Assembly (NCBI GenBank): GCA_030432595.1
Contig: JAUIGU010000039.1
Coordinates: forward strand, 1-36,674
DNA: 36,674 nucleotides
Direction: 5' to 3'
Origin: Phycisphaerae bacterium
GTDB taxonomy: Bacteria; Planctomycetota; Phycisphaerae; Phycisphaerales; Phycisphaeraceae
Shown here: piece by piece, positions 7,929-32,014 of the stretch
Layout of the letters: each line of letters starts with the position of its first letter
Position numbering within the stretch: position 1 is the stretch's first letter
Program-made: the position numbers and the translations under genes
Notes under the pieces: generated by a model
The model's input: the letters and a program-made list of their open reading frames with translations, nothing else
Database searches by the model: none
Told to the model about the DNA's origin: nothing

Positions 7929-8042
7929 AGAAAACTCAGAAAATCCAGAAGATCAGGAAAATCAAGAAAATCGAAGTGCGTTGGTCGTGACGCCTTCTCT
8001 GGTTTTCCGGATGTTCTTGATCTTCTTCATTTTCCGCATTTC
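7929..8042. repeat. Composite hairpin A: 9-nt-period inverted arms
   Basis: The left arm (7929-7975) is a degenerate tandem of 9-nt units (AAAACTCAG, AAAATCCAG, AAGATCAGG, AAAATCAAG). The right arm (about 7994-8042) is the same motif inverted (TTTCCGGAT, GTTCTTGAT, CTTCTTCAT). About 27 of 34 aligned positions are complementary. It fills the gap between the binding protein stop (8046) and the OppB start (7926) almost exactly; without it the gap would be about 5 nt. As RNA it would form a long AU-rich hairpin inside the operon message. Confidence 0.7.
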
Positions 8043-15805: not shown

Positions 15806-16041
15806 ATCACAGACGACACAGAGGCACGGAGACACAGAGACAGAAAGAAAGGAACCGCAAATTTTGCAGATGACGCAGATTGGAAAACAGAAAGAAGAGA
15901 CAGGATGGGCATGACAATCTGGATTCTTCATCGTTCTGTTCTGGCTTAATCCTGATCATCCTGTTCCTGCTCGAATCTGCGTCATCTGCGCAATCTGCGG
16001 CAAAAAACTCTGTGCCTCTGCGTCTCCGTGCCCTCTGTGAT
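15806..16041. repeat. Composite hairpin B: three nested short-period inverted repeats
   Basis: Outermost arms 15806-15843 and 16008-16041 carry 8-9-nt CACAGAGx units. Inside them, 15855-15882 and 15974-16000 carry 9-nt GCAGATxAC units. Innermost, about 15901-15925 and 15947-15962 carry CAGGAT-type units. Each level pairs with its own partner, giving a nested 236-bp foldback without a credible gene. An open frame runs through it into the dehydrogenase, but the protein similarity starts only after 16063. Without it deoC and the next gene would be about 39 nt apart. Confidence 0.75.
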
Positions 16042-17541: not shown

Positions 17542-17697
17542 AACCACCGATGAACTCGGATGAACACTGATGACTCAATTGCCACAAAAAAGCACATAAG
17601 GCACAAGACAAAGCTTTGAGACCTTTTTGTTTTTTGTGCAACTTGGTGGCCAATCTGCTCCAGCTCTATCTGAGTTCATCCGTGTTCATCGGTGGTT
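17542..17697. repeat. Composite hairpin C: two nested short-period inverted repeats
   Basis: Outer arms 17542-17568 and 17671-17697 are complementary at 24 of 27 positions and use a 10-nt GATGAACxCG unit. Inner arms (about 17579-17615 and 17625-17650) use a GGCACAA-type unit and pair more loosely around a central AAAGCTTT. The inner type also occurs alone in hairpin D. It lies between the two dehydrogenase genes; without it they would be 19 nt apart. Confidence 0.75.
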
Positions 17698-20764: not shown

Positions 20765-22531
20765 ATGCAGCACACCCGCCGAGTCATCACCCGGGCGCGT
20801 CGCCGCCGCCGTGTCGGCCGAGCGCTGCACGCGTTGGGCTGGGCGTGGCTGATCGCGGCGGTGGCTGCAGTGCTGGGCGCGTTCGGGGCGGCGGCGCTGG
20901 GGTATGTGTTGCTGTGGTGGGTCTATCCCGTGGGCTTCGGCGTCGCGCTGGTGGCGGCCGTCGCGTGGGCGTGGACCCGGCCCGACCCCGACCGCGACCT
21001 GGCCGGGCTGCTCGATGAAGAGCTCGGCTTGAAAGACCGCCTCGGCACCGCGCTGTACGCCGCCGACCAGTCGGACCACCCGTTCGCGCAGAGCGTGATC
21101 GATGAAGCCGAGAACGCGGCCCGCGGTGCCCCGGTCGCCGAGGCCGTGCCCGTGGTGTTGCCGGACGTGTGGCGGTGGACGGTGGCGGCGGGCGCGGTGG
21201 CACTGGTGTTGATCGTGTTTTTGCCGGGGACGTTCGACCCGTTCGGATTGAACGAGAAGCAGCAGCAGGCCGAGGCCCAGCGTGAAGCGGAACTCGCCGC
21301 GCAGCAGCACATCGAAGAAGCGTTGAACCTGATCGAGCTCGACGAGCCGGACGAAGTCGATCCGGCGGCCCAGGACCCCGAAGACCTGATGGAGCGCCTG
21401 GAGACCGTGCTGTCCAAACGCGATTTGAACACGCCCGAAGCGCGGCAGGACGCCGAGGCCGAGCTGTCGCAACTTCGCGACCACCTTAAAGAACTCGCCG
21501 AGGCGCAGAAGGCGCAGGACCAGGCGATGCAGCAGTCGCTTTCCGGTTTGGAGACCTCGGGGCGTGGTCCGGCCGACCGGTTCATCGAGGCGCTGCGGCG
21601 CGGCGACTACGACCAGGCCCGGCAGGCGCTCGAAGAGTTCGCCAACCAACTCGACAACGGCGACCTCAGCGAGACACAGAAGGAGCAACTCGAGCAACAG
21701 CTCGACGAACTCGCCGAGCAACTCGAAGCCGCGGCCGAGCAGCAGCAGCAAGCCGCCCAGGCGGCGCAACAACAGATCCAACAACAACTGCAAAACGCCG
21801 GCATGAGCCAGCAGCAGGCCCAGCAGCTCGCGCAGCAGATGACCCAGCAGGGCGTGACGTCGCAGCAGGTGCAGCAGCAGTTGCAGAACGCGGGCATGAG
21901 CCAGCAGCAGGCCCAGCAGCTCGCGAACCAGACGCAGCAGGCCCGCCAGCAGGCGCAGCAGTGCCAGGGCAACGGCAACGCGTCGCAGAACCTCTCCAAC
22001 GCGCTGGGGCAGATGTCGCAGGCGATGAAGCAGGGCCAGTCGGCGTCGTCCGGGTCGCAGTCGGCCCAGCAGCAACTCGGGCAGATGGCCGAGCAGATGG
22101 CGCAGAGCCAGCAGATGGCCCACGCCCAGCGGAAGCTCCAGCAGGCCCAGCAGCAGCTCGGACAGAACGCGGGCATGCCGGGCGGGACGCGGAGCGGCGT
22201 CGGCGGGCGCGAGGCCGGCAACGCCGAGGGCGGGCACCCGATCGGTGCCGAACGCAGCGGCGCGGGCTACAACGCCGTCGCCGTCATCGACGCGCAGGAA
22301 GGAAACGGCAAGGTGATCTCGTCGTGGCAGCGCGGCGGCGAGGTGGCGCCCGGCGAGGCGACCGTCCAGTTCCAGTCCGCCATCACCGAGGCCCAGGCCG
22401 CCGCCGAACGCGCCGTCACCGACGACCGCGCCCCCCGCCGGTACCACAAAGCCATCGAACGCTACTTCAACCGGATGCCGGCGACGCCGCAAGGCGGCGA
22501 GGAGTCAGCGTCAGAAGGGAACGGGGAATAG
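20765..22531 (+). CDS. Gln-rich coiled-coil membrane protein of the MoxR/VWA operon
   Basis: About 588 residues from the ATG at 20765 (GGGAG 6 nt upstream). The open frame reaches back through kdsA, but that part is shadow. Three hydrophobic segments (about 24-45, 46-68, 137-154) are followed by a long helical, heptad-like region (165-335). A Gln/Ala tract at about 310-480 contains two copies of QQLQNAGMSQQQAQQLA. The tail (from about 490) is less biased. Proteins with this layout commonly precede VWA/MoxR genes in planctomycetes and alphaproteobacteria (DUF4175-like), with no known function. A scaffold in the periplasm or at the membrane is likely. It is followed by hairpin E. Confidence 0.75.
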   Translation: MQHTRRVITRARRRRRVGRALHALGWAWLIAAVAAVLGAFGAAALGYVLLWWVYPVGFGVALVAAVAWAWTRPDPDRDLAGLLDEELGLKDRLGTALYAADQSDHPFAQSVIDEAENAARGAPVAEAVPVVLPDVWRWTVAAGAVALVLIVFLPGTFDPFGLNEKQQQAEAQREAELAAQQHIEEALNLIELDEPDEVDPAAQDPEDLMERLETVLSKRDLNTPEARQDAEAELSQLRDHLKELAEAQKAQDQAMQQSLSGLETSGRGPADRFIEALRRGDYDQARQALEEFANQLDNGDLSETQKEQLEQQLDELAEQLEAAAEQQQQAAQAAQQQIQQQLQNAGMSQQQAQQLAQQMTQQGVTSQQVQQQLQNAGMSQQQAQQLANQTQQARQQAQQCQGNGNASQNLSNALGQMSQAMKQGQSASSGSQSAQQQLGQMAEQMAQSQQMAHAQRKLQQAQQQLGQNAGMPGGTRSGVGGREAGNAEGGHPIGAERSGAGYNAVAVIDAQEGNGKVISSWQRGGEVAPGEATVQFQSAITEAQAAAERAVTDDRAPRRYHKAIERYFNRMPATPQGGEESASEGNGE

Positions 22532-22533
22532 GC

Positions 22534-22776
22534 AGTCGGGAGTCGGGAGTCGGGAGTCGGGAGTCGGGAGTCGGGAGTCGGGAGTCGGGAGTCGGGAGTC
22601 GGGAGTCGGTAAACGATACACGGGCAAAATCGGAGCAATCTTGAATGAACCTCCGTAGAAAATACAGGACTGTGCCCGGATCTCGATCAACGTGTTGAAA
22701 TGATGTCGCCGCGTGGAGCAGACGATTTGAATAGTTCCCTACGCCCGACTGCCTACTCCCGACTGCCCACTCCCGA
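22534..22776. repeat. Composite hairpin E with 11-copy heptanucleotide tandem array
   Basis: The left part (22534-22610) is AGTCGGG repeated ten times plus AGTCGGT, with no other variation. The right part (22743-22776) is the inverted form with alternating units (CCCGACT, GCCTACT, CCCGACT, GCCCACT). A unique stretch of about 130 bp, less GC-rich, lies between. Pure copies suggest recent slippage. The element runs to 6 nt before the TTG start of the next gene; without it the genes would be about 8 nt apart. Confidence 0.85.
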
Positions 22777-22782
22777 TCCCCC

Positions 22783-25700
22783 TTGCCCTTCACCTTCGAC
22801 CATCCCGCGCTGCTGAGCCTGCTGCTGCTGGCGGTGCCGATCGTCTGGCTGGGCGTGCGTGAACTGACGGTGCTCGAAAAGCCGCGGCGGTGGGTCGCGC
22901 TCGTGTTGCGTTGCGCCGTGCTGACGCTGCTGGTGCTGATGCTCGCCGGGCTGCGGACCCAGCGCACGCACGACGACCTGACCGTGATCGCCGTCGTCGA
23001 CCGCTCGGCGTCAATCCGCACATTCGGGCGCATGCCCTCGGCCCAACCGGGCAACGGATCGGACACCCAGAGCACCGACACCGCTTTGCTGAGCTTCCTA
23101 CGCAGCGCCGCCGGCGACCGGCGCCCCGAAGACCGCCTGGGCCTGGTGACGTACGACGGCCGGCCGTCCGTGCGCCTGCGGCCCGCGTCGCGCGACAGCC
23201 TCGACGCCGCCACCATCGACGACCCGCGCGACGGCACCGACACCGCCGCGGCGATCAACCACGCCCTCGCCGCGCAGGCCGACGGCGACACGGCCCTGCG
23301 CATCACGCTCGCCACCGACGGCAACGACACCGCGGGCGACCTGCTGGCCGCGGCCCGCGCCGCCGCCGCCGCGGGCGTCGAGATCGACGTGTTGCCCGTG
23401 CCCTACGACGTCGGCCGCGAGGTCATGGTCGAGGGCGTCTACGCCCCGGCCGAGGCCCGCGAGGGCCAGACCATCGCGGTGCGCGTCGTGCTGCGCGCCA
23501 CGTCGCCCGCGGCCGGCACCGTCGAACTGATGCGCGACGACGCGCTGCTGGACCTCGACCCCGCGCCCGACCGCACCGGCATCGCGGTCACCCGCTCCCA
23601 GTGGACCCGCACCCGCAACGACGCGCCGCCGCCCGGCGACAACACGGATGCCGACACGGCCGCCCCACCCACCGCCGCTTCTTCGGCCACCGACTACATC
23701 CTCGCGCTCACGCTGGACGTGCCGATGACCGACGCCGGGCCGTCCTCGTTCACGGCCGTGTTCGAACCCGACGGCATCGACACACGCGCCGCGCGTCAGG
23801 CCGGCCGCACCGGCGACCTGGCCGTCAACAACCGCGCCCAAGGCTTTACGCAGGTCGCCGGCAAGGGCAAGTTCCTTTTTGTTGACCAACTCGGCGGGGC
23901 GCCCGGGCGCATTTTGCCCGACACGCTGCGCAGCCGCGGGCTCGAGCTCGAAATCATTGCGCCCGACCGATTCCCCACGTCGCTCACCGCGCTGCAGCGC
24001 TACGACGGCGTGATCTTCCAGAACGTCCCCGCCGACGACATCCGCCCGTTCCAGCAGCGCCAGCTCGTGCGCTACGTCAAAGAACTCGGCGGCGGGTTTG
24101 TCATGATCGGCGGGCCCGATTCGTTCGGCGCCGGCGGATGGACCGGCAGCGACATCGACAACGAACTGCTCCCCGTCGACTGCGAGATCCCTTCGCAAAC
24201 CATCCTGCCCACCGGCGCGCTCGTGCTGGTGCTCGACCGCTCGGGCTCGATGGCGTCGCCCGTCGGCAACACCGGCGCGTCGCAGATGGAGCTCGCCGCC
24301 GAGGCCGCGGCGCTGGCGGTGCAGACACTCTACCCGCAGGACATGATCGGCGTCGTCGCGTTCGACCACTCCGCCAAGTGGGTCGTGCCCCTTCAACCCA
24401 ACGCCGACCCCGGCGAGGTCCAACGCCTGCTGCGTTCGGTCGAGCCCGACGGCGGCACCGACATCTACGCCGGCCTGCTCGCCGCGTTCCAGTCGCTCTC
24501 CGACCCCCGCGCCCAGGTGCAGGACCAGGCGATCCGTCACGTCATCCTGCTCACCGACGGCCAGTCCGAGGGGCCGTTCGAAGCCCTGGTCAACGACATG
24601 CGCCGCCAGGGCATCACGCTCTCGACCATCGGCGTCGGCGATGGGCACGAGCAGCAACGCCTGCAACAGCTCGCCTACCTCGGCGACGGCGAATACCACG
24701 AGATCATCGACCCGCAACAACTCCCGCAGGTGTTCATCAAAGAAGCGCGGAACATCCGCAAGAACCTGATCAAGGAGGCGACCTTCGCGCCCCAGCCGGT
24801 CAACACCGGCTCGCCGATCACGTCCGGCATCACCTTCAACGAACCGCTGCGCGGCCTCGTGCTCACCGGGCCGCGCTACGACCGCCGCGTCGACATGCCG
24901 CTGCTGGGGCCCGAGGGCGAGCCGCTGTTTGCGCACGGCCCGGTCGGGCTGGGGCGCGTCGCGGCGTTCACCTCCGACGCGACCAACCGCTGGGCCGTGC
25001 CCTGGCTCACCTGGGACGGCTACGTCGACTTCTGGACCCGCACCGCCCGCACCATCGGACGGCCCACCGCCTCGCGCAACGCCGACCTGCTCACCACCTT
25101 CGACGGCGACTCGCTCAAGCTCACGCTCAACACCTACGCCGAAGACGCGGCCCAAGCCGGACCCGAGCGCAGTGAAGGTCCGGGTCCACCGAATCAAACC
25201 GGGGGCGTCCGCGGCGGCGTGCTCATGCCCGACGGCACCATCGCTCAAGTCACGCTCGAGCAGACCGGCCCCGGGCGGTACGAAGCCACGCTTCCCGCGA
25301 CCGACGACGGCAACTACATCGCCTCGCTCTACCTCACCGACGAAGCCGGCGAACAATCCGCGGTCTTCGGCGGCGCGTCCCGCCCGCCCGGCGAAGAGCT
25401 CCGCCGCTTCACGCCCAACCACGACCTGCTGAAACAGGTCGCGCAGATCACCGGCGGCCGTGTGCTCAACCCCACCGACCCCACCGCGGCGCCGCTGTTC
25501 GAACGCACCAAACCGTTCACGACCGTGTCGTCGCGCCCGCTGCGCTGGTTGCTGATGCCGTGGCTGTTGGCATTGGTGATGCTTGACGTCGCGAACCGCC
25601 GCATCGCGTGGGACGCCGCCGCCATCGCCGGCTGGGTCAAGTCGCACGTCAAGCCCACCCGGCAGGACGCGCAGCAACGCGAAACCCTCGCCGCGCTCAA

Positions 25701-27026: not shown

Positions 27027-27476
27027 TTGAACCGCGGAGGCGCGGAGAACGCGGAGCAACGTCATGAAAGACATGAATCCCGAAATCAACCATCTCACCG
27101 ACCAGATTATTGGTGCGGCGATCGAGGTGCATCGGACACTCGGCCCTGGTTTCCTGGAGTCCACGTACGAGAAAGCCTTATCGATCGAGTTGAACCTCCG
27201 CAATGTCGCACACGTTTGCGAGGCGCCCGTCTCACTCACTTACAAGAACCGTCCGGTCGGTGAAGGGCGACTCGACATGCTGGTGTCGGGACAAGTCATT
27301 GTCGAGCTTAAAGCCATTGACAAACTTGCACCGATTCATCACGCCCAGGTCATCAGCTACCTGAAAGCAACCGGCCACCCCATTGGCTTGCTCATCAATT
27401 TCAACGCCGAAGTTTTGAAGGATGGTTTGAAACGGATCGTGCTTTCCTCCGCGAACTCCGCGCCTCCGCGGTTCAA
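27027..27476. mobile_element. Cassette F: 450-bp inverted-repeat element carrying a GxxExxY gene
   Basis: Terminal arms 27027-27056 and 27447-27476 are complementary at 28 of 30 positions, starting TTGAACCGCGGAGG, and are built of 8-9-nt GCGGAGxx units. The element lies between moxR and the DUF58 gene. The right arm forms the 3' coding end of the GxxExxY gene. No transposase and no clear target duplication is seen (flanks AGACAT and CCCCG). Precise removal leaves 11 nt between the operon genes. It resembles 23S rRNA intervening sequences in plan: complementary ends and a small gene in the loop. Confidence 0.7.
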
Positions 27477-27489
27477 CCCCGATGCCTGA
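27064..27489 (+). CDS. GxxExxY protein, putative PD-(D/E)xK nuclease
   Basis: 141 residues. The signature GFLESTY (29-35) defines the GxxExxY family (TIGR04256; Pfam places it in the PD-(D/E)xK nuclease superfamily). Fitting this, Asp71 (GRLDMLV) and Glu81-x-Lys83 (IVELKAI) form the D...ExK site, followed by HAQVISYLKATGHPIGLLINF. The function of the family is not established. The last 10-14 residues are encoded by the right arm of cassette F and by 13 nt beyond it, so the natural C-terminus is about residue 129. The stop overlaps the DUF58 start by 8 nt. ATG at 27064; a second ATG at 27073 is possible. Confidence 0.88.
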   Translation: MKDMNPEINHLTDQIIGAAIEVHRTLGPGFLESTYEKALSIELNLRNVAHVCEAPVSLTYKNRPVGEGRLDMLVSGQVIVELKAIDKLAPIHHAQVISYLKATGHPIGLLINFNAEVLKDGLKRIVLSSANSAPPRFNPDA

Positions 27490-28384: not shown

Positions 28385-30363
28385 GTTTTCTGTCCCCCCT
28401 ATCCGCGTTAATCGCCGCGGGCATCACGATCCCGCTGCTCGTCGCGCTGTACTTCTTGAAGTTGCGGCGTCGGCCGATGGTGGTGCCGTCGACCTTGCTC
28501 TGGCGCAAGGCGGTGCAGGACCTGCAGGTCAACGCGCCGTTTCAGAAGCTGCGGAACTCGCTGTTGCTGTGGTTGCAGTTGTTGCTGCTGGCGTTGCTGC
28601 TGCTGGCGATGGCGCGGCCGGCGGACGACGCGGCGGCGGTGACCGGGGACCGCGTCGCGATCCTGATCGACCATTCGGCGTCGATGTCGGCGACCGACGC
28701 CCCCGGGAACGCGTCGCGTCTGGAAGAAGCGAAACGCCGGGCGCGCGACGTCGTCGCGAACCTGGACGGCGGCGCGGCGGCGATGGTCGTCTCCTTCGCC
28801 GAGGCGTCGCGGGTGCGGCAGCAGTTCACGACCGACCGCGCGGCGCTGCGGCGCGCGATCGACGCCATCGAGCCGACCGACCAGCCCGGTCGGCTGGGCC
28901 CGGCGCTGCGCGTGCTCGAGCCGCACGCGGCCACGGCCGACACGGGGGCGTTGTCCGTGGTCGTGATCGGTGACGGCAAGGTCAGCGACGGCGCGGGCGT
29001 GCTGCCGGGCGTGCCGGGCGCCGAGGTGCGGTTCCTGGCCATCGGGTCGGCGACGCCGGACAACCTCGCGATCGTCGCGGCGGACGCGCGGCGGGGCGTC
29101 GACGACCCGGCGGCGGTCGAGGTGTTCGTCCGGCTGATCAACACCGGGCCCGACACGTTGACCACGGCGGTGACGCTCCAGCGCGACGGCGAGCCGATCA
29201 CGGTGCGGAAGGTCGCGGTGCCGGGGGCCACGGACCGCACGGACACCACCGGAGATGAGGGTGTCGAACCCGCGTCCACCGTGGTACCCGGCGAACGCGT
29301 CGTGACCTTCCCGCTGCGCATCGCCGGCGGCGCGGCGCTCGAGGTGTCACACGATCACGACGACGCACTTTCGGCCGACAACACCGCGCGGATGGTGCTC
29401 ACCGCGGCCAAGCGCCTGCGGGCGCTGATCGTCAGCCCCGACGCCCAGCCGTTTGCGCTGGTCGAGGCCGTCGGCGCGACCGGCGTGGACGTGATGGACC
29501 GGGTCACGCCGGCGCAGTTCGACGAACAGGACATGACCGGCGAGAACTACGACGTGGTCGTCTTCGACCGCTGGACGCCGGACGCGCCGCCGGTCACGAA
29601 CACCTTGTGCTTCGGCGTGGTCCCCGCGATCCCGGGGCTGGCGCTGCGTGAAGCGCAGGAAGACGACCCGCCGCTGCAGCGGCCGCTGACGTGGGCGACG
29701 GACGAGCCGGTGATGCGGTACGTGTCGCTGGACGAGCTGGTGGTGCGTCGCCCGGGCCGGCTGGTGTTGCCGACGGGCGGGCGGTCGCTGGCGATGGGGC
29801 TGACCGGGCCGATGATCGCGCAGGTGCCGTATCAGGCGGAGGACGGCCGGCGGACCGAGCACGTGATCGTGTCGTTCCCGGTGAACGAGAGCCGGTGGCC
29901 GCTGAGCTGGAGCTACCAGGTGTTCATGGTCAACGCGCTGGAGGTGCTGGGGCTGGACACACCCGGCGACTCGGCGACGCTGAAGTTCGCGCCCGGCGAA
30001 GCGGTGTCGGTGCCGGTTGAATCCGACGCGGGGGCCGTCGTTTTCTCCGGCCCGGTCGAGCTGCGCGGCAACGTGCGCGGCGGTCAGGCGACGCTGCCGA
30101 CGCTGTCACGCGTCGGGTGGTACGAAGCCGGCGACGGCGTCGAGCCGCCCTTCACGCAGCTCGCGGTGAACCTGCTGGACGTCAACGAGAGCGACCTGCG
30201 CCCGGCGGCCACGCTGCGCGTCGCGTCGTCGTCCGGCACCGCGGCGAGCGCGGCCGAGGGTGAGGAGCGGGTGCGCCGCGAGTGGTGGCCGTGGGTATTG
30301 AGTGCGGCGCTGGGGATGTTGTGCGTGGAGTGGTTTGTGTATGTGCGGCGCATGCGGGTGTGA
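28381..30363 (+). CDS. BatA-like membrane protein with VWA domain
   Basis: About 660 residues from a GTG at 28381, coupled to the DUF58 stop. Two N-terminal helices (about 6-26 and 60-78) flank a basic loop (KLRRRPMVVPSTLLWRKAV), the BatA N-terminal pattern. A VWA domain follows with MIDAS DHSAS (97-101). Then come beta-sandwich-like regions (VEVFVRLINTGPDTLTTAVT) and a region around 350-470 of uncertain fold (LRALIVSPDAQPFALVEAVG). One C-terminal helix (WPWVLSAALGMLCVEWFVYV) ends the protein. It is probably exposed to the periplasm and works with the other MoxR-operon proteins. Cassette G starts 2 nt after its stop. Confidence 0.88.
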   Translation: MSFLSPLSALIAAGITIPLLVALYFLKLRRRPMVVPSTLLWRKAVQDLQVNAPFQKLRNSLLLWLQLLLLALLLLAMARPADDAAAVTGDRVAILIDHSASMSATDAPGNASRLEEAKRRARDVVANLDGGAAAMVVSFAEASRVRQQFTTDRAALRRAIDAIEPTDQPGRLGPALRVLEPHAATADTGALSVVVIGDGKVSDGAGVLPGVPGAEVRFLAIGSATPDNLAIVAADARRGVDDPAAVEVFVRLINTGPDTLTTAVTLQRDGEPITVRKVAVPGATDRTDTTGDEGVEPASTVVPGERVVTFPLRIAGGAALEVSHDHDDALSADNTARMVLTAAKRLRALIVSPDAQPFALVEAVGATGVDVMDRVTPAQFDEQDMTGENYDVVVFDRWTPDAPPVTNTLCFGVVPAIPGLALREAQEDDPPLQRPLTWATDEPVMRYVSLDELVVRRPGRLVLPTGGRSLAMGLTGPMIAQVPYQAEDGRRTEHVIVSFPVNESRWPLSWSYQVFMVNALEVLGLDTPGDSATLKFAPGEAVSVPVESDAGAVVFSGPVELRGNVRGGQATLPTLSRVGWYEAGDGVEPPFTQLAVNLLDVNESDLRPAATLRVASSSGTAASAAEGEERVRREWWPWVLSAALGMLCVEWFVYVRRMRV

Positions 30364-30364
30364 G

Positions 30365-30815
30365 GTAGAGCAATAGAACAGGAAAGCAGTAGAGCAGTAA
30401 ATCAGGCAGAAGATCGCTTTGAGCGGGCAATGATGGTCTTGACGATCTTGAGTAATTCCGTTGCTTCCTGCTTGAGCGGTTCGATACGGTCCGCTTCGAG
30501 CCATCCGGCCTTCACCACCTGATCGAGCCAGTAACAGGTCTCGCTCAGTTCTTTGGCGGACCAGCCGAGACACTTGATGAAGTCACGGCGACTCACTGCC
30601 TCCGCGGCTTCGTACACCTGAGCGCCGGCGGAAGTCCCACTCCCACAAAGCTGATCGACCACCCGACGGTGCCGTTTCTGCTCTTCGAGCACATCGACAA
30701 GCCGCAACACCCGACCCCCGAAATCCGAGAACCGTTCGAGAATCGCATCATCAAGACGCCCGCGTCGCATGCCTCCAATTTACTGCTTTCCTGCTTTACT
30801 GATCTACTGTTCTAC
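30365..30815. mobile_element. Cassette G: 451-bp inverted-repeat element carrying a four-helix-bundle gene
   Basis: Terminal arms 30365-30402 and 30778-30815 are 38 nt each with about 32 complementary positions. They are an exact 8-nt periodic series (GTAGAGCA, ATAGAACA, GGAAAGCA, GTAGAGCA, GTAAATCA). The enclosed gene is on the minus strand; its stop codon touches the left arm and its start is 7 nt from the right arm. Removal leaves 21 nt between the BatA-like gene and purM. No transposase or target duplication is seen. Confidence 0.75.
30402..30770 (-). CDS. Four-helix-bundle protein (23S rRNA intervening-sequence protein family)
   Basis: 122 residues, all helical by pattern. The family core is clear: LCGSGTSAGAQVYEAAEA (41-58), SRRDFIKCLGWSAKEL and ETCYWL, then a last helix (IEPLKQEATELLKIVKTIIA). 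It matches TIGR02436/PF05635, first found in intervening sequences of 23S rRNA genes of Leptospira and Coxiella and known to form oligomers of four-helix bundles; its biological role is unknown. It runs against the surrounding plus-strand genes and fills cassette G. ATG at 30768-30770, no clear Shine-Dalgarno. Confidence 0.9.
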   Translation of the reverse strand: MRRGRLDDAILERFSDFGGRVLRLVDVLEEQKRHRRVVDQLCGSGTSAGAQVYEAAEAVSRRDFIKCLGWSAKELSETCYWLDQVVKAGWLEADRIEPLKQEATELLKIVKTIIARSKRSSA

Positions 30816-30835: not shown

Positions 30836-31936
30836 ATGCCCAACACCAAGTCCAAACCCCCCCTCACCTACGCCACCTCCGGCGTCGATATCGACGCCGG
30901 CGACCGTGCGGTGGAGTTGATCAAGTCTCATTTGCGCCGCACCCACGGGCCGCGCGTCTTGGGGAAGCACGGGGCGTTCGCGGGGATGTTTCGGCTGGAC
31001 TACAACGAGAAGCTCTTCCAGCGCAACTACAAGGACCCGGTGCTCGTCGCGTGCACGGACGGCGTGGGCACCAAGGTCAAGCTCGCGATCCAGCTCGGGG
31101 TGCACGACACCATCGGGCAGGACTGCGTGGCGATGAACGTCAACGACATGATCGTGCAGGGCGCCGAGCCGCTGTTTTTTCTCGACTACGTCGGGCTGCA
31201 CAAGGTCGTTCCCGAAGACATGGAACAAATCGTCAAAGGCGTGGCCGACGGCTGCGCGATCGCGGGCTGCGCGTTGCTCGGCGGGGAGACGGCGGAGATG
31301 CCGGACGTTTATGCGAAAGACGACTACGACCTGGCGGGTTTTGCCGTGGGCGTCGTCGAGCTGCGTCGGGTGATCGAGGGGCAGGAGCGCGTCGAGCCCG
31401 GTGACGTCATCCTCGGCCTCGCGTCTTCGGGTGTCCACAGCAACGGGTACTCGCTGGTCCGTGCGGTCGTGAAGCAGGCCAAGCTCAAGCTGGAGAAGGT
31501 CTACGACGACTACGCCGACGACCCTATGCACGGCGGGCGCACGCTGGGCGAGGCGTTGCTCGAACCGACGCGGATCTACGTCAAGCCGATCGTGTCGTTG
31601 CTGCGTGGGTACAAGCGCAAGCGGCCGATCTCGGGCATGGCCCACATCACCGGCGGCGGGCTGCCTGGCAACCTCAACCGGGCGCTGCCGGAGGACGTGG
31701 ACGCGAAGATCGACCGCAAGAGCTGGGACGTGCCGCCGCTGTTCCGGTTTCTTCAGAGCGCCGGCAACGTGGGCGAGGACGAGATGTTCCGCGTGTTCAA
31801 CATGGGGATCGGGTACGCGCTGATCGTCCGGCCACACTTCGCCGACGCGGTCGCGGACAAGCTCCGCAAATCGGGCCAGACCGTGTATGTGCTCGGGAAA
31901 GCGGTACGCGGCAAAGGTCGGGTGAGGTTGGGGTGA
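30836..31936 (+). CDS. purM: Phosphoribosylformylglycinamidine cyclo-ligase (AIR synthase)
   Basis: 366 residues. It closes the imidazole ring in purine synthesis using ATP (fifth step). Seen: YATSGVDIDAGDRAVELI, the ATP-site block CTDGVGTKVKLA, GQDCVAMNVNDMIVQGAEPLFFLDY, LLGGETAEMP, GLASSGVHSNGYSLVR, HITGGGLPGNLNRALP and FNMGIGYALIV. Full length for the family. ATG at 30836, separated from the BatA-like gene by cassette G and followed by inverted repeat H. Purine synthesis is unrelated to its neighbours. Confidence 0.95.
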   Translation: MPNTKSKPPLTYATSGVDIDAGDRAVELIKSHLRRTHGPRVLGKHGAFAGMFRLDYNEKLFQRNYKDPVLVACTDGVGTKVKLAIQLGVHDTIGQDCVAMNVNDMIVQGAEPLFFLDYVGLHKVVPEDMEQIVKGVADGCAIAGCALLGGETAEMPDVYAKDDYDLAGFAVGVVELRRVIEGQERVEPGDVILGLASSGVHSNGYSLVRAVVKQAKLKLEKVYDDYADDPMHGGRTLGEALLEPTRIYVKPIVSLLRGYKRKRPISGMAHITGGGLPGNLNRALPEDVDAKIDRKSWDVPPLFRFLQSAGNVGEDEMFRVFNMGIGYALIVRPHFADAVADKLRKSGQTVYVLGKAVRGKGRVRLG

Positions 31937-31945
31937 CGCGCAGCG

Positions 31946-32014
31946 GGGTCTGGGGCTTGGGGTCTGGGGTTTAGCCGCATCAGGCTTCGGACCCGAACCC
32001 CAAGCCCCAGACCC
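31946..32014. repeat. Hairpin H: 7-nt-period inverted repeat after purM
   Basis: Arms 31946-31963 and 31997-32014 are perfect 18-nt reverse complements (GGGTCTGGGGCTTGGGGT) with a 33-nt loop. The left side continues as 7-nt units (GGGTCTG, GGGCTTG, GGGTCTG, GGGTTTA). It starts 9 nt after the purM stop and may serve as a terminator, but no U run follows. The htrA gene begins 131 nt further on. Confidence 0.8.

Follow-up and report, generated by a model that had tools for sequence, protein, structure and literature searches.

A four-helix-bundle gene between inverted arms of tandem short units in a Phycisphaerae genome: a possible REPIN-like mobile element

Results

The cassette and its setting

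The window, by which we mean the whole 36,674-nt stretch of a Phycisphaerae bacterium contig that was analysed (JAUIGU010000039.1, assembly GCA_030432595.1; contig C63 of genome G000 in our numbering), carries a compact cassette between two protein-coding genes. Its left arm (30365..30402, plus strand) consists of the 8-nt units GTAGAGCA ATAGAACA GGAAAGCA GTAGAGCA followed by GTAAAT, and its right arm (30778..30815, minus strand) is the reverse complement of the left at 84%; each arm is 38 nt long and the two are spaced by 375 nt. Enclosed by them on the minus strand is a gene (30402..30770) for a 122-aa four-helix-bundle (4HB) protein, which scores 63.2 bits against TIGR02436 (cut-off 24) and 49.5 bits against PF05635 (cut-off 33.8). 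A 692-aa plus-strand ORF with BatA/VWA domains ends at 30363, a single base before the left arm, and a plus-strand AIRS (purM-type) ORF starts at 30836, so that the 4HB gene is antisense to both neighbours. The first-pass annotation of this DNA had described 38-nt inverted ends with a strict 8-nt period around a gene of the 23S rRNA intervening-sequence protein family, lying antisense between a BatA-like gene and purM. The ends, the protein family and the placement are borne out; the 8-nt period is evident though not strict, with a lag-8 self-match of 0.67 for the left arm and 0.80 for the right. The RNA fold of the cassette region has a z score of -3.89, with none of 100 shuffles equally stable, and a search of the whole window against Rfam gave no match. 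Inverted repeats with a score of at least 16 number 13 in the window, against none in three dinucleotide shuffles.

A second cassette of like plan has a left arm (27027..27059, plus strand) of CGCGGAGG-type 8-9-nt units, 91% complementary to a right arm (27444..27476, minus strand) that lies within the 3' end of the enclosed ORF. This ORF (27064..27489, plus strand) encodes a 141-aa GxxExxY protein of the PD-(D/E)XK nuclease superfamily (TIGR04256, PF13366), in which, judged by eye, the GxxExxY motif and a D..ExK pattern are kept; the cassette is preceded by a plus-strand ORF that, by eye, appears MoxR/AAA-like. Six further arm pairs in the window enclose no such gene: 7939..8034 (lag 9, with a unit resembling that of the 4HB cassette at C32:9567 of the same genome), 15806..16041 (CACAGAGR units), 15855..16000 (GCAGATTT-type units), 17542..17697 (lag 10), 22514..22791 (7-nt GGGAGTC units) and, right behind the purM stop, 31946..32014 (7-nt GGGTCTG/GGGCTTG units, like the 4HB cassette of contig C1). 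The 15855-16000 pair is nested within 15806-16041, concentric with it and built of unlike units, and a triple nest occurs at G000:C17:102325-102670 (L220). Three arms in the window begin shortly after a stop codon (stop/arm start 27020/27027, 30363/30365 and 31936/31946).

The encoded protein and candidate enzymes

The AF2 model of the 122-aa protein has four helices and a pLDDT of 95.6. Its fold neighbours are 2rld (Z 19.1, rmsd 1.6 over 112 residues), 2gsc (Z 16.2) and the DGR RNP/Avd at Z of about 13, a value at the edge, as helical bundles easily reach middling Z scores. Both 2RLD and 2GSC are five-chain crystal entries, and by analogy with them and with the DGR accessory protein Avd the 4HB protein may be pentameric. 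To our knowledge no catalysis has been ascribed to 4HB proteins. Within the cassette no gene for a transposase, a reverse transcriptase or a ligase was seen, and the cargo of the cassettes is PF05635 or PF13366, not Y1 transposase. Among 41 related genomes, reverse transcriptases are present in only 16 and Y1 transposases in 33, and no link of either to the cassettes was seen by eye. The single reverse transcriptase match of G000 lies on C19 at 102115 and its Y1 matches lie on C17 and C32; the window's contig has neither.

Armed cassettes in related genomes and in named records

The 41 genomes form the survey sample, in which all 85 PF05635 matches and 50 of 55 TIGR04256 matches were read. The flanks of each locus were compared with flanks cross-paired between genomes, and inverted arms at p<=0.05 were found at 66/85 PF05635 loci and 42/50 GxxExxY loci; 19 4HB loci and eight GxxExxY loci, two of the latter in G000, have no significant arms by this test. 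A profile search of G000 gave 10 PF05635 and 7 TIGR04256 matches, with inverted arms at nine and six of them by inspection, which makes 15 cassettes, and at 9/10 and 5/7 by the test. The first-pass annotation had proposed that other family members be examined for inverted flanks; as these stand around nine of ten members in G000 and 66 of 85 in the sample, the cassette plan is general. Units vary between the cassettes of G000. For further comparison the cassettes were filtered by score and distance to a set of 108 (65 4HB and 43 GxxExxY) from 23 genomes, with score thresholds, 13.5 and 14.5, that were chosen after the flank-test results. The GxxExxY threshold lets in a single locus with p above 0.05, namely L016 of G000 (p = 0.0755), and L123, which passes p<=0.05 and is counted in the 66/85, is excluded from the 65 since its repeat is non-tandem and 231 nt off the domain. 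The length of the 4HB cassettes is 407-552 nt (median 456). In 1.24 Mb of planctomycete sequence, a scan for tandem-armed pairs with loops of at least 250 nt returned 4HB and GxxExxY cargo and some chance pairs in coding DNA, in stretches mostly picked for these two families and with ORFs judged by eye.

In named records, 21 of 24 4HB loci (L235, on the contig of L140, is omitted) have arms scoring at least 13.5, the armless ones being L237, L252 and L253; at 15 of the 24, the locus's own arm pairing is unmatched by any cross-pair. Antisense placement of the 4HB gene is not a rule: on several named plasmids the gene is co-oriented with both neighbours, and on others it is opposed. 4HB genes also lie within CRISPR loci of cyanobacterial plasmids, in settings such as cas6-cas4, cas10-cmr3 and cas2-cas1 (L238, L251, L240, L243, L256), and Monoglobus has, between the HsdS and HsdR genes, a 4HB relic (L259:801-1148) that is unannotated, contains in-frame stops and is flanked by 7-nt arms. 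Two strains of Flavobacterium columnare are described with a 4HB gene about 35 nt 3' of guanylate kinase and ahead of nadD (PMC5524665). Gene-border positions are taken solely from the window and the annotated plasmids; our home-made gene caller mixed up strands in the GC-rich G000, and its gene-border statistics for the 15 cassettes, together with the neighbour types of arms-only elements, were set aside.

Unit length and covariation of unit and protein

How does the arm unit relate to the protein that it encloses? In the 65 4HB cassettes of the filtered set, arm self-match is 0.637 at lag 7 and 0.625 at lag 14 over a base of about 0.24, and in the 43 GxxExxY cassettes it is 0.386 at lag 8 and 0.387 at lag 9 over a base of about 0.26. 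Lag 7 beats lag 8 in 53 of the 65 4HB cassettes; lag 8 is better in 12, and the window cassette belongs to this 8-nt minority alongside L140/L235 and L236 (Phycisphaeraceae bacterium). The L140/L235 cassette of genome G024 has the same kind of unit as the window cassette (AGAACAGT/CAGAACAG) and a protein 57% identical over the aligned part, and purM of G024 is on another contig. Unit similarity and protein similarity are correlated between genomes in both families (r = 0.417 for 4HB, n=65; r = 0.391 for GxxExxY, n=43), with 0/500 permutations as high in each, the permutations ignoring relatedness. From the lowest to the highest class of protein similarity (1034 and 39 pairs), arm likeness rises from 4.4 to 10.9. 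The rise is from 5.4 to 6.8 for the 30-nt inner spacer between arm and gene and from 5.4 to 6.1 for the 30 nt on the outer side of the arm; because these adjoining stretches follow protein similarity much more weakly, the constraint lies on the arms themselves.

The pairing of clade and unit can be read off the clustering by eye: units are mostly AGTNNNN in the SNIAEGFDR-type 4HB clade, GGGTNNN in the IAEGYGRxHR clade, GATNNNN in the ANYRAACRARS clade and AATGNCC in the EADEAxSKK clade. Cassettes of Nostoc, Trichormus and Aulosira have CAGAAGT/CAGGAGT arms, and the nearest protein is one of G000 with CAGTAGT arms; AGCTTTT-like arms occur in Calothrix PCC 7716 and Pseudanabaena, and the arms of the nearest protein are AGCTTTC. 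When 21 named loci (20 from outside the planctomycetes) are set against the 65 planctomycete cassettes, the unit-protein correlation is r = 0.219 (0/1000 permutations as high). The correlation in named records is modest, and part of the loci disagree, several having units unlike those of the nearest planctomycete proteins. The covariation may reflect co-inheritance under some constraint other than direct binding.

Arms-only relatives and turnover

In 400 kb of one G000 contig there are 50 inverted repeats with a score of at least 16, against 7 in one shuffle, and 19 of the 50 have tandem-like arms. The arms-only elements of this sample and of the window make up a test set of 27, three of which resemble ordinary palindromes that passed the filter. 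For 20 of the 27, the match to a cassette unit of their own genome is equalled by no more than 1 of 50 shuffles; the mean score against own-genome cassettes is 15.89, against 11.54 for random other-genome sets (0/2000 sets as good), and the own-genome match is individually better for 15 of the 27. GGGTGCCACGGTCGCTTGCGACCGTG, with its close variants, is an ordinary palindrome that recurs on contig C17 of G000; it is non-tandem and REP- or terminator-like, with copies for example at 41687-41778, 158107-158200, 232297-232388 and 288377-288469.

All 14 other cassettes of G000 are missing at the aligned sites of a genome of the same genus, G001, where the aligned flanks stop 0-15 nt and 0-22 nt short of the arms; for L012, a 1337-nt stretch of G001 takes the place of the cassette. 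In G001 the PF05635 profile gives one match, which falls short of the cut-off, and the GxxExxY profile gives none. Its purM stands next to a different gene, so the batA-purM site of the window is not comparable there. Another genome, G010, does have batA paired with purM, together with a short arms-like sequence but without any 4HB match; this sequence resembles the G000 arms, its ungapped pairing is weak (9/300 shuffles as good) and its fold z is -2.98 (2/200). By eye no target-site duplication is evident at the compared G000/G001 junctions, some of which have extra bases. Four of eight tested G001 spacers have another arms-only hairpin, with an unlike unit, at the same junction, and therefore junctions may gain hairpins by another route.

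Cassettes within genes

Two cassettes, L060 and L064, from genomes of two families, occupy the same position of a dnaE-type polymerase gene: each falls between the part that matches the NTPase domain and the part that matches the finger domain. In both, the host gene can be read across the cassette without a stop, in a frame other than that of the 4HB gene. Across the 108 cassettes, a frame open to 120 nt past both arms is found at three; L051, which is without a coding signal on one side, is not counted. At L006:1444-2355 the 4HB frame runs on into an IspF-type (YgbB) domain in a 303-aa ORF that starts in the left arm. L060, L064 and L006 fit translation through the element, and in the first two the open host frame fits read-through better than excision. 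The window cassette itself lies outside rRNA genes, between the BatA-like and purM genes. The only 23S gene found in G000, on C48, matches positions 1-2925 of the model as a single 2,748-nt piece, and none of the 10 PF05635 members of G000 is on its contig.

Discussion

What might explain a small gene held between inverted arms whose tandem units tend to vary according to the type of protein inside? This tendency points to a mobile element that recognises itself rather than to a segment cut out of mRNA, and on balance we think it probable that the cassette is a small mobile REPIN-like element whose arm units are the recognition sites of its own 4HB protein. The ends of such an element would be the inverted arms, each of a few tandem 7- or 8-nt units. 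The 4HB protein, perhaps as a pentamer, would bind both arms and pair or hold the ends, either as DNA or as a folded strand, and the complex would help the element to be copied or inserted into short spacers at gene borders. The element would spread alone or with a borrowed enzyme for cutting and joining. Arms-only copies with the same unit would be non-autonomous relatives spread in trans, and the GxxExxY nuclease-like genes, with their 8-9-nt units, would represent a parallel family. The sequences themselves show the arms and their tandem units, the covariation of unit and protein, the arms-only relatives within the genome and the absence of the cassettes from the same-genus genome; recognition of the unit by the protein, the oligomeric state, the movement and the cutting and joining enzyme are inferred.

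The first-pass annotation had read the cassette as an mRNA intervening sequence, in which the transcript would fold on the arms and RNase III would remove the cassette as in 23S rRNA. In its favour are the strong RNA fold of the cassette and the likeness in protein family, size and plan to the intervening sequence of Coxiella 23S rRNA, as that is described (PMC4990558). Yet the dnaE-type host frames are open through both insertions and the 23S rRNA of G000 is without an insert, its contig lacking any 4HB gene, and for these reasons mRNA excision is not supported. Removal by RNase III does not predict that unit and protein covary, and many copies consist of arms only, so that we hold this explanation to be quite improbable. 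It is very improbable that the arms are terminators or mRNA-stabilising hairpins at gene ends that received a gene in the loop by chance. Three arms in the window do stand shortly behind stop codons, and Xanthomonas transcripts are reported to start or stop more often at quadruplex-forming heptamer repeats than at control repeats (PMC4692102), but a 375-nt loop is unlike an intrinsic terminator and some cassettes stand within CRISPR operons among co-directional genes.

An autoregulatory site, where the 4HB protein would attach to the arms of its cassette in DNA or RNA form merely to control expression of itself or its neighbours, with movement incidental, would account for the covariation and for placement within operons. 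It leaves unexplained both the dispersed arms-only copies with the same unit and the presence of inverted arms on both sides of the gene, and we regard it as unlikely. Fairly improbable, in our judgement, is a neutral origin, in which slippage and template switching during replication grow repeats and palindromes at gene borders and small genes are caught by chance. Such errors would produce tandem units, nested hairpins like those at C17:102325-102670 and the differing hairpins at the same junction in G001. They would not make unit length and sequence depend on protein family and clade, partly across phyla, and only two cargo families were noticed, in a set mostly picked for both; the neutral reading is weakened by the correlation among named loci and by the comparison of arms with their flanks.

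REPIN/RAYT systems consist of short dispersed palindromic elements at gene borders, many of them without a gene, and a protein that putatively acts on them; RAYT is a Y1 transposase that acts on REP sequences. The cassettes resemble these systems in their short palindromic form, in their position at gene borders, in the many gene-less copies and in having a protein thought to act on them, but their cargo is a 4HB or GxxExxY protein and their arms are of tandem units that differ between elements. The Coxiella 23S intervening sequence is described as a 428-nt selfish element with an S23p ORF and a 28-bp terminal stem, excised by RNase III (PMC4990558), and other 23S inserts as having transposases or no ORF (PMC2672173). 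Intervening sequences with an S23 ORF share with the cassettes the protein family, a length of about 430-450 nt and complementary ends; unlike them, the cassettes described here lie in protein-gene spacers and not in rRNA. The arms of the window cassette are of tandem 8-nt units, and the cassettes have arms-only copies and a unit matched to the protein clade. By the features tested, the cassettes belong to neither REPIN/RAYT nor the 23S intervening sequences. Rickettsia palindromic elements insert into the reading frame of protein genes and are translated along with them, which is reminiscent of the cassettes L060 and L064 within a protein gene with an open host frame; we know of no 4HB gene or tandem units in them. 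The DGR accessory protein Avd (PDB 4dwl, 8ub7) has a similar fold at Z of about 13 and acts in a nucleoprotein complex with a reverse transcriptase, whereas the window's contig is without one.

Cyanobacterial STRR repeats have 7-nt tandem units and are grouped with the heptameric repeats. In Xanthomonas, Rehm and co-workers describe 70-75 inverted pairs of GGGAATC heptamers per genome, near stop codons and under-represented between divergent genes (PMC4692102). The same account gives 83% of the repeats as kept in place between two species, which speaks against frequent movement, and its authors did not tie the repeats to mobile elements (PMC4692102). The GGGGA(C/T)T repeats of Nostoc PCC 7120 are reported to occur rarely in pairs, with none found on its plasmids (PMC4692102). 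Both sets resemble the cassette arms in their 7-nt tandem units and the Xanthomonas repeats also in their inverted pairs and proximity to stop codons; they differ in that no protein partner is proposed for them in what we saw of that account (PMC4692102), and the Nostoc repeats in their few inverted pairs. The P6b stem of the Nostoc trnL intron is built of 7-nt repeats (TDNGATT / NNTGAGT) of an origin stated to be unknown (PMC4476775). Some 4HB units read similarly (GATTTGT, AGTGATG), a likeness noted by reading and not by a statistic, but the stem lies within a group I intron and has no gene. No 4HB or GxxExxY gene joined to tandem-unit arms was found in the open-access literature, seen largely at abstract level.

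Could these repeats and the cassettes have a common source? 4HB proteins of the S23/Avd fold might read a repeat code with a clade-specific 7- or 8-nt unit, and the cyanobacterial and Xanthomonas heptamers, the Nostoc trnL stems and the 23S intervening sequences might all be traces of one cross-phylum class of self-recognising, hairpin-armed elements, with the GxxExxY nucleases in parallel; we put this forward tentatively and would sooner doubt than believe it. Many bacterial genes carry no annotation beyond 'four helix bundle protein' or 'GxxExxY protein'; the cyanobacterial and Xanthomonas heptamers are so far unexplained. If the protein reads the repeats, the puzzle of the genes and that of the heptamers would merge into one testable question, the reading of clade-specific DNA or RNA units by an Avd-fold protein would amount to a new mode of sequence recognition, and the rRNA intervening sequences would fall within a larger family of elements. 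A link of the published Xanthomonas and Nostoc heptamers with 4HB proteins may exist, and Xcc0516 of Xanthomonas campestris (PDB 2gsc) is itself a 4HB protein. In a blind test of Xcc0516 against 86 cassettes, the proteins ranked 4 to 6 carry units unlike GGGAATC; the units of the three nearest proteins rank 1, 3 and 3 (tied) in likeness to GGGAATC, and the overall correlation is 0.35, with 1/2000 permutations as high.
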